A stretch of DNA of 64,000 bases, from positions 1-64,000 of the forward strand of contig JAJCZJ010000070.1 in assembly GCA_029262455.1 (NCBI GenBank). Direction: 5' to 3'. The position numbers were made by a program, and so were the translations under genes. Below, piece by piece: positions 59,844-64,000 of this stretch (position 1 is the stretch's first letter; the number at the start of each line of letters is the position of its first letter). The DNA comes from Deltaproteobacteria bacterium (GTDB lineage: Bacteria > Desulfobacterota > Binatia > HRBIN30 > CADEER01). The notes under the pieces were generated by a model that had not been told where the DNA came from, ran no database searches, and worked only from the letters and a program-made list of their open reading frames with translations.

Positions 59844-61811
59844 TCAGTTGCCCTCTACCACCGCCTGCGCCCCCCCGAGACTCGGCGGCGGCGTCATGTC
59901 GGCCAGCCGCGCGACGCGGTGCGACAGGGAGACGGCATCCGCCTCCTCGGCCGCCACGGCAGGGCCGATGACGAGCGAGACCCGCGACCAGATCCTGCGA
60001 AAAGGCCGCCGCAGAGTCTTACCGTCCTTGCGCGAAAAGAAGCTGCCCCACATTCCCTTTAAGGCCATGGGCACGACCGGTACCGGTGTGCGCTCGAGAA
60101 TGCGCTCGACACCCGTCCGAAACACGTTGATCTCCCCGTCGCGCGTCAGCTTTCCCTCGGGAAAGATACAGACCAAGTTCCCATTTTCGAGCTCAACCGC
60201 AATCCGCTCGAACGCCTCGACCAGGGTGTCCTCCGACTCGTGCGCCGGCGCGATAGGAATCACCTTGGCGTCGCGGAACATCCAAGAGACGAAACGCATG
60301 TCGCGAAACCCGTGGTACATCACGAATCGAGGTGGCCGCTCACACGCGCTGGCGACGAACAACCAGTCGACGAAGCTGACGTGATTGCACACCAGGAGCG
60401 CCGCCCCCTCTTGCGGCACATTGTCGAGCCCGACGACTCGCAAACGATACATGATGTTGGCGACGACCCAAGCAGCGAAACGAAAGAGAAACTCGGGGAT
60501 CGTTTGGTAGATGTAGAACGCGACCGCAATGTTCATCAGCGATAGCACCAAAAAGATCTGCGGGATCTCCAAGCCGGCACGCAACAGCGCCATCAACATG
60601 ATCGAGGAAGCGACCATGAACAACGCACCCATAATGTTGCTGCCGGCGATGACACGAGATCGGTAAGCCGCTTCCGAGCGCTGCTGCACCAGCGTGTAGA
60701 GTGGGACGATGTAGAGGCCCCCAAACACGGCGATCAAGACAAAGTCGAACATGATCCGCCAGCTCGACGGCACCCCGATGAATCCCCCAACTCCCAAAAG
60801 TGGCCCACCAACAGCCTCGGGAGTGCCGGCCAGAAACAGATCGAGCGCCGCTAGACTCATGCCCAGCGAGCCAATGGGCACAACGCCGAGCTCGACCGTG
60901 CGACCAGAAAGCCGCTCGCACAACAAGGACCCCACGGCCGTACCGACGCAAAACAGGGCAAGCAGTAAGGTCACGACATGCTCGCCACCGTGCAGCACCG
61001 ACTTGCCGTAATCTGGCAGGAGCGCGATGAAGCAACCGCCGAAAAACCAGAACCACGCAATCCCGAGAATCGAAAGAAACACCGTGCGGTTGGCACTGGT
61101 CACGCGCACGGTCTCGCGCAACGGCGTGATCGGATTCAGGGAGATCGCCAGGGTCGGATTCTCCGCCGGTAGCGGTGGCACCCGCAGGCTGGCGAGAAAT
61201 CCCGCGACCGCGACGATCAACACAGTGCCAGCCACTAGATACACGCCGTAGCCTGGCACTGAAATCAACACACCACCGAAGATCGTACCCAACAAGATTG
61301 CCAGGAACGTACCGGTCTCGACCAACGCATTGCCACCGACCAACTCATCCTTGTGCAGTAGCTGCGGCAGGATGCTGTACTTGACCGGACCAAAGAAGCT
61401 CGACTGGGCGCCCATCAGGAAGAGAACGAACAACAGCAAGCGCAGATCTCCGAGCGCCAACCCAACCGCGGCGATCGCCATGAGAACGATCTCCGCCAGC
61501 TTCACCCAGCGCACCAACGGCGGTTTGCGAAATCGATCGGCCAACTGGCCGGCGAACGCCGAGAACAACACGAATGGCAGGATGAACACCCCGGCACTCA
61601 TGACGACGACTTCGCTCGGATCCAAGCCGGCCACCGAGAGAGAACGAAAGACGATCAGGATCGCCAGGGCGTTCTTGAACAGATTGTCGTTCAACGCTCC
61701 GAGAAACTGCGTCCAAAAAAACGCCGAGAAACGACGCTCGCGCAACAGATGCATCTGGCTCACCGGTGTCCCACCGTTCTCATATCTCCGCACTGCATCA
61801 TGAACCGTCAT
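59844..61811 (-). CDS. LplT-like lysophospholipid transporter fused to PlsC-type acyltransferase
   Basis: About 655 residues; start at ATG 61811 (GTG at 61820 possible). Residues 30-430 are an MFS permease of the LplT kind (FSAFFWTQFLGALNDNLFKNALAI, MGAQSSFFGPVKYSILPQLL). Residues 445-640 are a PlsC/AGPAT domain: VCNHVSFVDWLF (HxxxxD) and VCIFPEGKLTRDGEI. E. coli splits this into LplT plus Aas; here there is no AMP-ligase domain. It should flip lysophospholipids inward and re-acylate them using acyl-CoA or acyl-ACP. Two bases after the rhombosortase stop, it belongs to the operon with the VWA protein. Confidence 0.9.
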   Translation of the reverse strand: MTVHDAVRRYENGGTPVSQMHLLRERRFSAFFWTQFLGALNDNLFKNALAILIVFRSLSVAGLDPSEVVVMSAGVFILPFVLFSAFAGQLADRFRKPPLVRWVKLAEIVLMAIAAVGLALGDLRLLLFVLFLMGAQSSFFGPVKYSILPQLLHKDELVGGNALVETGTFLAILLGTIFGGVLISVPGYGVYLVAGTVLIVAVAGFLASLRVPPLPAENPTLAISLNPITPLRETVRVTSANRTVFLSILGIAWFWFFGGCFIALLPDYGKSVLHGGEHVVTLLLALFCVGTAVGSLLCERLSGRTVELGVVPIGSLGMSLAALDLFLAGTPEAVGGPLLGVGGFIGVPSSWRIMFDFVLIAVFGGLYIVPLYTLVQQRSEAAYRSRVIAGSNIMGALFMVASSIMLMALLRAGLEIPQIFLVLSLMNIAVAFYIYQTIPEFLFRFAAWVVANIMYRLRVVGLDNVPQEGAALLVCNHVSFVDWLFVASACERPPRFVMYHGFRDMRFVSWMFRDAKVIPIAPAHESEDTLVEAFERIAVELENGNLVCIFPEGKLTRDGEINVFRTGVERILERTPVPVVPMALKGMWGSFFSRKDGKTLRRPFRRIWSRVSLVIGPAVAAEEADAVSLSHRVARLADMTPPPSLGGAQAVVEGN

Positions 61812-61813
61812 CT

Positions 61814-62452
61814 CTACCACGAAGCGGCAGCAACCAAACAGTCATCATTCTTCGGCGGCACCAAACAGGGGAGCCACCCTAGCGCCGCGCCAAGTGCATG
61901 CGCCAACGGCACCGGCGCGATGCTCGAGCTATCGAAGAAGAGGGCTCGCCCAGTGACGAGCTCAAAGCAGACCTTCGCCGTCACCACCCCCGCCGCCAAC
62001 CATCCCGCCAGCTGGAGTTCGGAGTCGCGCGAGTTCACACAGTGGCCCGCAACGAGAGCGAACAACGCACAATCGACACCCGAAAGCCCGCGAAACGCCG
62101 TCAAGTCGGGCACCAGAGCATAGACCACGGCAGGCAGGATCGTGAAGGACATCAACAAACAGCACAGGTAGCGGCGCGGCGCCAAAATTTCACAAACCGC
62201 GCCGAGTACCGCAAAGGTAGTTACGTCCCAGAACAGATGCTCCCCGTCCCAGTGTGTCAGCTGAGATGTCACCAGGCGCCACGGCTCCCCACCAGCGCCG
62301 CGCGCCCAGTCGAGCTGCCAGGCCTCACCCAGCCCGAACACGTGGGCCAGAATGGCGGTGACGACCACTCCGATCGTCACCACCGGCCACCGCCAAGTGC
62401 GTCGGGCCGGACCGTTGCCGGCCCCACGGTGATTCATTGCTGGCAGAAACAT
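61814..62452 (-). CDS. rrtA: Rhombosortase (rhomboid-family sorting protease)
   Basis: 212 residues, six or so membrane helices. Rhomboid marks: HWDGEHLFWDVTTFAVLG, catalytic Ser124 in FRGLSGVDCALF, and His185 in PLAHALGAALGW. The compact size and the 'RGLSG' loop fit rhombosortase rather than GlpG. Rhombosortases cut the GlyGly-CTERM tail of exported proteins and help anchor them; the upstream VWA gene ends with just such a tail, nine bases before this gene's start at 62452, which follows GAGG. Confidence 0.85.
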   Translation of the reverse strand: MFLPAMNHRGAGNGPARRTWRWPVVTIGVVVTAILAHVFGLGEAWQLDWARGAGGEPWRLVTSQLTHWDGEHLFWDVTTFAVLGAVCEILAPRRYLCCLLMSFTILPAVVYALVPDLTAFRGLSGVDCALFALVAGHCVNSRDSELQLAGWLAAGVVTAKVCFELVTGRALFFDSSSIAPVPLAHALGAALGWLPCLVPPKNDDCLVAAASW

Positions 62453-62461
62453 CCGCCCGCC

Positions 62462-64000
62462 TCACGAACGTTGCCGACGACGCCGGGCGCGTAACGCCGC
62501 GAAGCCAACACCGAATGCCGCTACACCACTGAGCGGGTCGATCGCCCCCGAACCACCACCGCGGCGACGCGGCGCACGGCCGGCGAACATTCCACGCCGT
62601 TTCTTCTCGGCCAGCGGCTGTCCGGGTTGCGCCGCCGCTGGCGCAGCGGCCGGTGCATCCACCCGGTAGTTGCGCGGCGCCGACATCGCTCGTCGAGTTT
62701 GGGCGCTATTTTCTCGTGCAACACGATCGCGATTGGCGCGATCGATCCCGTGACGCTGATGACCGGCATCGTCGAGTACGATCATCGAGGTGTAATCGGT
62801 CACCAGCTGGTAGTCGACACCGATCTGTTCGACGGCTGGCCCCAAGGCCCCTTCCAGCAGCCCGACCGCGTCGAGGTCTTCGAGCTCCTCGATACGACTC
62901 AGCGCCCAAAGGCGTTCGATCTCGGGATGTTTATCATCCGAGGCCGGCATCACGAACTTCGTCGAGTAGGTCTTGTCCTCTCCAGTGAGCCTCGCGCGCA
63001 GTTGCAGCCGCGCCTGGCCGGACCCTTCGTACTTCCCAAACAGCACCAACTGCTGACCCCGATAGACTCGGCGCGGAGTCAGCCCGGTGACGTCAAAGAC
63101 ACGCACACCGTCAATCTCCAATTCGACATCGTGTAAGACTTCGTGACCAATCTTCTCCTTCGCCAGCGCCACCTGGCCGATCAAATCATCGGCATTCGAA
63201 ACACCGGCGGAGAATCCACCGGTTCGACTCGTGATCAGGCGCATCAACGGCCAGTTGGCATTGTTGCCCATCAAAAAACCGTAGACCCGCACGTCGTAAC
63301 GCGACACCAGCGCCGCAAAGTCCTGCGGCGCAATCATGCCGACGTTTGCGACGGCATCAGTAACAAGAACCACGCTCGTAGCTCGCTCGTCATCGAGACC
63401 GTCGGTCGCGATCTCCAAGCCGGCGTACAGATTCGTTCCATTCGAGGCCCGCAATCCCCGTATTGCGGCTACGGAGGATCGCAACTTTGCCTCGCCCACT
63501 TCCTGCCACCCGACCACTTCCCAAGCCCGGTTGTTGAAAGCGACAACGCGGAAGCGATCGCCAGCCCGTAACCCCTCGATTGCCTGGACAACACCGTCCT
63601 GCAGCGTGGCCATCTTTGCCGCCATGCTCCCGGACACATCGATTACGAAGACATAGTCAGTACCGCCGCTGATCGGTTTCAGGTCGATCCCCGGCGTGAC
63701 GACCAACATGAACGTCCCCGGCGCATTCGGATCATCGCGAAACGGGATCATCTCAACCCGCCCGGGGAGATCGTCCTCGAGCCTGTAGTACAAGACAAAA
63801 TCTCGCCCAAGCTCAGCACCCTGGCGTTCGACATGGACTTTGAAGTTCCCGTCGTCGACGCGATCGATCTGAGCTACCTTGTCATAGTCCGGAACTCGGA
63901 CATCCATGATCGGCCAAACCGATCGCAACTCGACGTCGATCGAGAAGGTCCCTTCGACCTTCTCGTTTGTTGACCAAAAACGTTGCGCCGCATCGTCGGT
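62462..64000 (-). CDS. VWA/VIT-domain exported protein with GlyGly-CTERM sorting signal (5' partial)
   Basis: The frame is open to the right edge; about 513 residues are visible, so the N-terminus and signal peptide are outside. The visible start (EKVEGTFSIDVELRSVWPI) belongs to a VIT-like domain, followed by a von Willebrand A domain with metal site FVIDVSGSMAAKM, SNGTNLYAGL and VLVTDAVANVG. After a helical linker and an Ala/Pro-rich stretch, the C-terminus is a GlyGly-CTERM tail: RRGGGSGAIDP, a hydrophobic helix and a terminal arginine cluster RARRRRQ. This is the recognition signal of the rhombosortase encoded next. Similar to inter-alpha-trypsin-inhibitor-like surface proteins. Confidence 0.9.
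   Translation of the reverse strand, partial: TDDAAQRFWSTNEKVEGTFSIDVELRSVWPIMDVRVPDYDKVAQIDRVDDGNFKVHVERQGAELGRDFVLYYRLEDDLPGRVEMIPFRDDPNAPGTFMLVVTPGIDLKPISGGTDYVFVIDVSGSMAAKMATLQDGVVQAIEGLRAGDRFRVVAFNNRAWEVVGWQEVGEAKLRSSVAAIRGLRASNGTNLYAGLEIATDGLDDERATSVVLVTDAVANVGMIAPQDFAALVSRYDVRVYGFLMGNNANWPLMRLITSRTGGFSAGVSNADDLIGQVALAKEKIGHEVLHDVELEIDGVRVFDVTGLTPRRVYRGQQLVLFGKYEGSGQARLQLRARLTGEDKTYSTKFVMPASDDKHPEIERLWALSRIEELEDLDAVGLLEGALGPAVEQIGVDYQLVTDYTSMIVLDDAGHQRHGIDRANRDRVARENSAQTRRAMSAPRNYRVDAPAAAPAAAQPGQPLAEKKRRGMFAGRAPRRRGGGSGAIDPLSGVAAFGVGFAALRARRRRQRS

Follow-up and report, generated by a model that had tools for sequence, protein, structure and literature searches.

What do C-terminal sorting enzymes attach to their substrates, and where does the lipid come from? 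This open question is raised by a locus in a 64,000-nucleotide stretch of DNA (the window: positions 1 to 64,000 of contig JAJCZJ010000070.1, assembly GCA_029262455.1) from a Deltaproteobacteria bacterium of the lineage Binatia, in which the genes for a VIT/VWA protein, a rhombosortase and an LplT-PlsC fusion (a lysophospholipid-transporter-like protein joined to an acyltransferase) follow one another in the same direction. A preliminary description, made from the sequence alone, had suggested that the fusion could make or recycle the lipid used in anchoring. Our survey of rhombosortase neighbourhoods indicates that this adjacency is unlikely to be due to chance. The reading we favour, to which we give slightly better than even standing, sees the locus as an operon under sigma-54 control in which display of the VIT/VWA protein is coupled to membrane-lipid repair; such co-regulation of surface anchoring and lipid repair seems to us likelier than a flippase that serves the anchor lipid specifically. 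Free-living bacteria whose operon unites a single substrate, a single rhombosortase and a single lipid-recycling protein would open the question to genetic tests.

All three genes lie on the minus strand. The VIT/VWA gene enters the window with its 3′ part (62462..64000, 512 codons), and its translated C-terminus carries a sorting tail made of GGGSGAIDP, a hydrophobic segment and RARRRRQRS (62465..62560). Next come the gene for a rhombosortase of 212 amino acids, a rhomboid intramembrane protease (61814..62452; Ser124 at 62081-62083, His185 at 61898-61900), and the gene for the fusion (59844..61811), which has an MFS lysophospholipid-transporter-like half and a PlsC-type acyltransferase half. 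Gene calls and family searches bore out this arrangement as described earlier, and with ATG 61811 as the start of the fusion the intergenic distances come to the reported 9 and 2 bases. Alternatively, GTG 61820 would overlap the rhombosortase by 7 bases, and GTG 61763, 50 bases past the rhombosortase stop, aligns with the start of the orthologue in genome G019 and with the second Met of that in the same-genus genome G002. The three genes do stand together, but the operon is less self-contained than had been proposed, as a promoter-like site and a regulator sit beyond the window.

Recurrence of LplT-PlsC beside rhombosortase genes

In a sample of 395 genomes of the phylum, rhombosortase was found in 8 (E<=1e-19; 7 of these above cut-off) and LplT-PlsC in 33 (E<=1e-50). 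Four of the 8 rhombosortase genomes, the window's own (G000) together with G099, G314 and G352, have LplT-PlsC within ~2.1 kb of the enzyme: directly downstream in G000 and G314, one amidohydrolase gene away in G352, and on the opposite strand, two genes from the rhombosortase, in G099. The other four (G135, G260, G292 and G343) carry no LplT-PlsC anywhere in the genome at E<=1e-50. Among the carriers is a culturable strain, Geothermobacter hydrogeniphilus HR-1, whose cluster comprises rhombosortase, an amidohydrolase-like gene and LplT-PlsC-Aas. A rough binomial estimate, which assumes one 4-Mb genome and 10 kb either side, gives P = 2e-12 for adjacency within 10 kb over all 8 genomes, 2.5e-9 without the window (3/7) and 2.6e-6 when, in addition, the Geothermobacter pair is counted once (2/6). 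When the open reading frames of 25 neighbourhoods were clustered, with antisense families excluded from the ranking by judgement, LplT-PlsC was present in 8. On a tree of LplT-PlsC proteins (34 rows, including 23 of the 33 phylum proteins; G442 and G083 omitted), the link to rhombosortase must have changed six times, by gain or by loss, which equals the number enforced by the starred branches. The survey of neighbours that the preliminary description had put forward as a check therefore places LplT-PlsC above chance level: the linked genes sit on separate branches, and the family is the commonest recurring neighbour of rhombosortase after VWA and the sigma-54 activator (enhancer-binding protein, EBP) described below.

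A scan of contigs from a species collection, seeded with four rhombosortases, yielded 39 loci, 22 of which were examined (L083-L104). LplT-PlsC lies nearby in six of them: L083 (the same as G352), L086 (the same as G099) and four new linked loci, L085, L087, L089 and L096. L089, from a Desulfobacteraceae metagenome-assembled genome, reproduces the window's exact order, with an EBP gene divergent from VWA, rhombosortase and two-domain LplT-PlsC. Three of the 22 examined loci (L092, L100, L101) hold none of the genes. Absences are soft where a locus is cut off by the end of its contig (for example L087, L092, L095, L096, L173, L181 and L199), and neighbouring proteins were named by eye unless the name is Pfam-based. 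Outside the phylum, rhombosortase-like matches (E<=1e-15) occur in 41 of 294 Planctomycetota genomes. Forty of the 43 neighbourhoods were retrieved and searched, 25 of them above the TIGR03902 cut-off and 15 below, and VWA is present in 27 of the 40, including 21 of the 25 above the cut-off. G449, which is among the 40, and G444 (L090) have a close LplT-PlsC-Aas, in which an acyl-ACP synthetase (Aas) domain is added, on another contig; in G444 it shares one cluster with an EBP.

Further genes were observed around these loci. A Ceramidase-like membrane protein and an alpha/beta hydrolase are encoded between LplT-PlsC-Aas and rhombosortase in G099 (L080, 7535-9434). Alpha/beta hydrolases that look exported by eye stand directly before LplT-PlsC-Aas genes in L139, L140, L141 and L096, an Amidohydro_2-like protein comes after rhombosortase in L076, L079 and L087, and a DUF2238 protein is encoded near the VWA-rhombosortase pair of L090 (4980-5579).

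How the window's own operon was put together can be read in part from its relatives. G002 shares the window's gene order of an MFS gene, arfB, LplT-PlsC (68% identical) and a CoA-transferase-like gene (78%; named by eye), but VWA, rhombosortase and EBP are missing from among them; its LplT-PlsC is sister to the window's (tree support 100). Nine Planctomycetota VWA proteins that stand beside rhombosortases form a set with the window's VWA protein (support 99; best identity 56%). The tree was a quick one, its output carries a long-branch warning, and L095 was omitted from it as a duplicate of L195. Of the 20 genomes searched, the 19 others gave no close VWA relative; matches at 24-25% lie in G001, in G003 and, in G000 itself, at a further site. 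G001 and G003 say nothing about the junction, since the contig of one stops 147 bases before the aligned start of LplT-PlsC and that of the other begins inside the gene. Because the VWA protein groups with Planctomycetota and has no close relative in the other genomes searched, insertion in G000 is preferred over loss in G002, and a VWA-rhombosortase-EBP cassette probably arrived horizontally and landed directly before a resident LplT-PlsC.

A sigma-54 activator family near lipid genes

The divergent gene upstream of VWA encodes a sigma-54 activator (PF00158, 164.1 bits vs 20.2). A site, TGGCACGAGTGATGC, starts 46 bases before the VWA start codon and agrees with the sigma-54 consensus at 10 of 11 positions; scores of >=9/11 were reached by 197 of 6600 random windows. 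Both rpoN and an above-cut-off gspD are present in the genome. In rhombosortase loci, sites scoring >=9/11 precede 10 of 19 starts (of operons or of LplT-PlsC). The figure is 5 of 10 for Planctomycetota starts accompanied by an EBP, 4 of 13 for EBP-linked starts whose locus contains no rhombosortase, and 2 of 20 for unlinked LplT-PlsC starts. The LplT-PlsC-Aas of G099 forms a separate unit with a sigma-54-like site of its own.

The N-terminal 200 residues of the EBP match no Pfam family up to E 0.1. Structure modelling (pLDDT 86.8, from 6 sequences) predicts a conserved, all-helical domain, for which no fold match emerged: the best Foldseek hits were FadR chains (E 0.31, TM 0.26), and a second comparison reached Z 4.2 at best. 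A search with a model of this domain found the family in 25 of the 395 phylum genomes, at 26 loci. EBP and LplT-PlsC co-occur in 9 of the 395 genomes vs 2.1 expected (P 5e-5), and in 8 of the 9 they lie within ~3 kb of each other. Five genomes in which no rhombosortase is matched at E<=1e-19 (G020, G118, G205, G333 and G405) carry the EBP and LplT-PlsC as a divergent pair; in four of these five an Amidohydro_2-like gene, named by its similarity to Pfam-tested copies, lies between the two.

The same EBP family thus adjoins VWA-rhombosortase in some loci and LplT-PlsC alone in others, and its range of neighbours extends to other lipid genes. It adjoins Fab-type fatty-acid clusters holding an acyl transferase, KAS III, a FabA-like protein and a ketoacyl synthase (G092, L298; G432, L295; G058, L300; G132, L302), a ketoacyl-synthase protein at least 2790 aa long (G237), and an Amidohydro_2-like gene with an MGDG synthase (G114, G312); in G252 phospholipid genes lie on its 3′ side. 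A family that adjoins lipid genes and rhombosortase operons alike makes its regulon readable from genomes. Some smaller observations concern the same neighbourhoods. The EBPs beside the Fab-type clusters have an NPF-type N-terminal domain, so that it is their own, unnamed activator family that occurs near lipid genes. An Amidohydro_2-like protein is repeatedly encoded in the interval from the EBP to either LplT-PlsC-Aas or MGDG synthase (L255, L256, L259, L261, L301, L303), a DUF2339 protein adjoins the EBP in L288 (5314-8025), and proteins that by eye resemble the DUF2339 and DUF2238 ones stand near EBPs in L256, L259 and L255.

Explanations for the linkage

There are several possible explanations for a lipid-recycling gene beside a sorting enzyme. 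In the favoured one, an envelope or lipid signal would be read by the divergent EBP, which together with RpoN would fire the -24/-12-like promoter before the VWA gene. The VWA protein would be exported, and its GlyGly-type tail would park in the inner membrane. There the rhombosortase, which is expected to cut and anchor this protein, would cut at the glycines, and the new C-terminus would be joined to a glycerophosphoethanolamine-containing moiety, as reported for VesB of Vibrio cholerae; type II secretion would then carry the lipid-joined protein to the surface. LplT-PlsC, presumably translated from the same message, would flip lysophospholipid inward and re-acylate it, and the phospholipid pool, anchor donor included, would thereby be kept intact. 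Several observations weigh against this coupling. LplT-PlsC is absent from all 40 Planctomycetota rhombosortase neighbourhoods and the EBP is present in only 10 of them, several of the contigs being short. The contig-scan count is biased, as 3 of the 4 seed enzymes already had an LplT-PlsC neighbour. Many linked starts, in three linked groups, carry no sigma-54-like site, and ~8 of the 26 EBP loci have no lipid gene by eye among the matches listed, a raw count with no random-gene baseline. The Planctomycetota neighbourhoods make LplT-PlsC dispensable next to a VWA-rhombosortase pair; as the EBP, in addition, adjoins LplT-PlsC, fatty-acid or glycolipid genes where no rhombosortase is matched, the link is facultative. 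Lineages that do without it imply that anchoring does not need LplT-PlsC nearby, and the repeated assembly of rhombosortase with LplT-PlsC implies that having both together is useful. From the recurrence one may suspect that surface anchoring and the upkeep of membrane lipids are turned on at the same time.

That the fusion serves the anchor itself, recovering lysophospholipid from the making, trimming or release of the anchor or fixing the acyl chains of its donor, seems to us doubtful. Adjacency beyond chance argues for such a dedicated role, as do the glycerophosphoethanolamine reported on VesB (PMC6219818), the archaeal artA-pssA/pssD precedent (PMC7157517) and the lipid-type hydrolases of the same cluster, with an alpha/beta hydrolase in L096 and G099 and, in the latter, a Ceramidase-like protein (30.5 bits, under the cut-off of 32.5). 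However, the 27 Planctomycetota neighbourhoods with VWA and rhombosortase contain no LplT-PlsC, five genomes of the phylum pair the same EBP with LplT-PlsC and have no rhombosortase match, and G002 keeps LplT-PlsC in place without VWA or rhombosortase. Moreover, transamidation onto phosphatidylethanolamine, as proposed for VesB, would yield no lysolipid. Of the earlier suggestion of a dedicated partner, the non-random adjacency stands and the exclusive tie to anchoring is doubtful. In its broadest form, this idea would have the VIT/VWA protein joined to phospholipid and a dedicated flippase-acyltransferase, with hydrolases in some lineages, building, recycling or remodelling the anchor under one lipid-sensing sigma-54 activator. 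We think such a bacterial anchor-remodelling system rather unlikely; if real, it would be the bacterial counterpart of archaeosortase-PssA/PssD and would bear a loose likeness to glycosylphosphatidylinositol-anchor remodelling.

Two other accounts are improbable to a greater degree. A VWA-rhombosortase-EBP cassette might by mere chance have been inserted before a housekeeping LplT-PlsC, an idea suggested at first by G002, in which the same gene order occurs without the three genes. It fits an LplT-PlsC that is resident in the genus and has its sister in G002, and a VWA protein that groups with Planctomycetota and is not closely matched in any of the 19 other searched genomes. The phylum survey overturned it: further lineages show the adjacency with different LplT-PlsC subtypes and in different gene orders, and an insertion would be unlikely to land by chance both beside this particular gene and in its orientation. 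Alternatively, the EBP might answer lysophospholipid released by hostile or self-made lipases, with LplT-PlsC(-Aas) repairing the membrane and the VIT/VWA protein serving as a surface shield or adhesin. LplT/Aas is said to help shield E. coli from phospholipase (PMC11416262), and alpha/beta hydrolases that look exported by eye adjoin LplT-PlsC-Aas in G444, G449, G450 and G451. The window's operon has no such hydrolase, though, and an EBP that neighbours clusters for fatty-acid synthesis suits a wider lipid-related role, so we see little prospect for a phospholipase-defence regulon. Co-regulated surface display and lipid repair remains the reading we prefer.

The open-access literature, to which our search was confined (subscription papers and preprints were outside its scope), yielded no report of the lipid-gene link, its recurrence or the EBP link, and of its 21 papers that name rhombosortase, 4 also contain the word acyltransferase and none mentions LplT. 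The comparisons that follow rest on parts of the papers cited. Single-substrate GlyGly-CTERM/rhombosortase gene pairs were already described in 2011 (Haft and Varghese, PMC3237569); as here, one substrate gene stands beside one rhombosortase gene. A figure legend of that paper shows VIT/VWA proteins with GlyGly-CTERM tails, and its Table 3 includes Desulfuromonas, Geobacter, Syntrophobacter, Opitutus and Rhodopirellula. The window differs in having LplT-PlsC and a sigma-54 activator in addition and a tail that escapes TIGR03501, and the text of PMC3237569 never uses the word acyltransferase. In Vibrio cholerae, rhombosortase cleavage of VesB and a glycerophosphoethanolamine remnant have been reported, the anchor lipid being inferred from that remnant (PMC6219818). 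VesB and RssP resemble the present case in enzyme family, tripartite tail and the presence of the secretin gene gspD, but there one enzyme serves several GlyGly-CTERM proteins (PMC6219818, PMC13393428); neither LplT nor acyltransferase appears in the text of PMC6219818.

A precedent for a sorting enzyme genetically tied to phospholipid metabolism and C-terminal lipid anchoring is archaeosortase A, termed a nonhomologous analogue in PMC7157517. Methanosarcina artA adjoins pssA/pssD, whose homologues take part in ArtA-dependent lipid anchoring in Haloferax, and in that case synteny did lead to an anchoring role (PMC7157517). PssA and PssD synthesise a headgroup lipid, whereas the window's partner is predicted to be of the lysolipid-recycling kind. 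In E. coli, LplT flips lysophospholipid and Aas re-acylates it, and fused LplT-Aas open reading frames exist whose functions are uncharacterised (PMC11416262). The window's protein likewise combines an MFS flippase with an acyltransferase but has no acyl-ACP synthetase domain, and in the portions of PMC11416262 drawn on here no sorting enzyme is connected with it. Sigma-54 control of sorted proteins is shared with those PEP-CTERM systems that have sigma-54 regulators, likened to the window by model names, but these use another sorting enzyme.

Proteins of the operon

Family searches place the three proteins with differing precision. The rhombosortase scores 95.3 bits against TIGR03902 (curated cut-off 84) and is the only one above that cut-off in 58 genomes, the window's own and 57 relatives. 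Ser124 (in GLSG) and His185, the residues singled out earlier, are invariant in an alignment (A1) of 8 rhombosortases. The fusion, of 655-658 aa, has an MFS_1 domain at 35-334 (PF07690, 68 bits vs cut-off 33.4) and a PlsC-type acyltransferase domain at 459-587 (PF01553, 94.2 bits vs cut-off 23). The acyltransferase motifs HX4D (H480, D485) and FPEG (553-556) are invariant in 5 aligned LplT-PlsC sequences. Flippase and acyltransferase parts were thus rightly described as one protein; the MFS half is here named LplT-like because it remains below the cut-off of the LplT transporter model NF008397 (103.8 bits vs 297). Against NF005291 (MFS-PlsC-Aas) the fusion scores 534 bits vs 1349, aligned over 4-607 of 1140, the Aas domain being absent.

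The full VIT/VWA gene, obtained from the contig (C70, 62462-64504), extends 504 bases past the window and encodes 680 aa. Its product contains VWA domains (PF13519/PF00092), a VIT domain at 38-142 (PF08487) and an N-terminus that looks signal-like by eye; both domain types described earlier are present in the full protein, but the VIT domain falls outside the window. The tail GGGSGAIDP-helix-RARRRR was found in the translation as claimed. By eye it is tripartite, with a Gly-rich motif, a hydrophobic segment and a basic C-terminal end, and similar endings are seen in most of 46 listed VWA proteins adjoining rhombosortases (45 distinct). The GlyGly-CTERM model TIGR03501 fails to match it in a search of its own genome to E 10 and in hmmscan to E 5. 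The full protein scores 170.8 against the model of sortase-linked VIT/VWA targets (marine sortase target TIGR03788), below the cut-off of 551.65; it resembles these as a VIT/VWA target of a sorting enzyme and differs in the enzyme concerned. The search of the genome with TIGR03501 gave 6 weak matches, of which 2 are above cut-off (one a C-terminal tail without GG, one internal). Since the model overlooks the window's own tail, the VWA protein cannot be called the sole substrate. Two of the weaker matches, L039 (C69, ~25430) and L041 (C88, ~451301), end in GGCAV, a hydrophobic stretch and basic residues; these tails are Cys-type and may point to another C-terminal sorting system in this genome.

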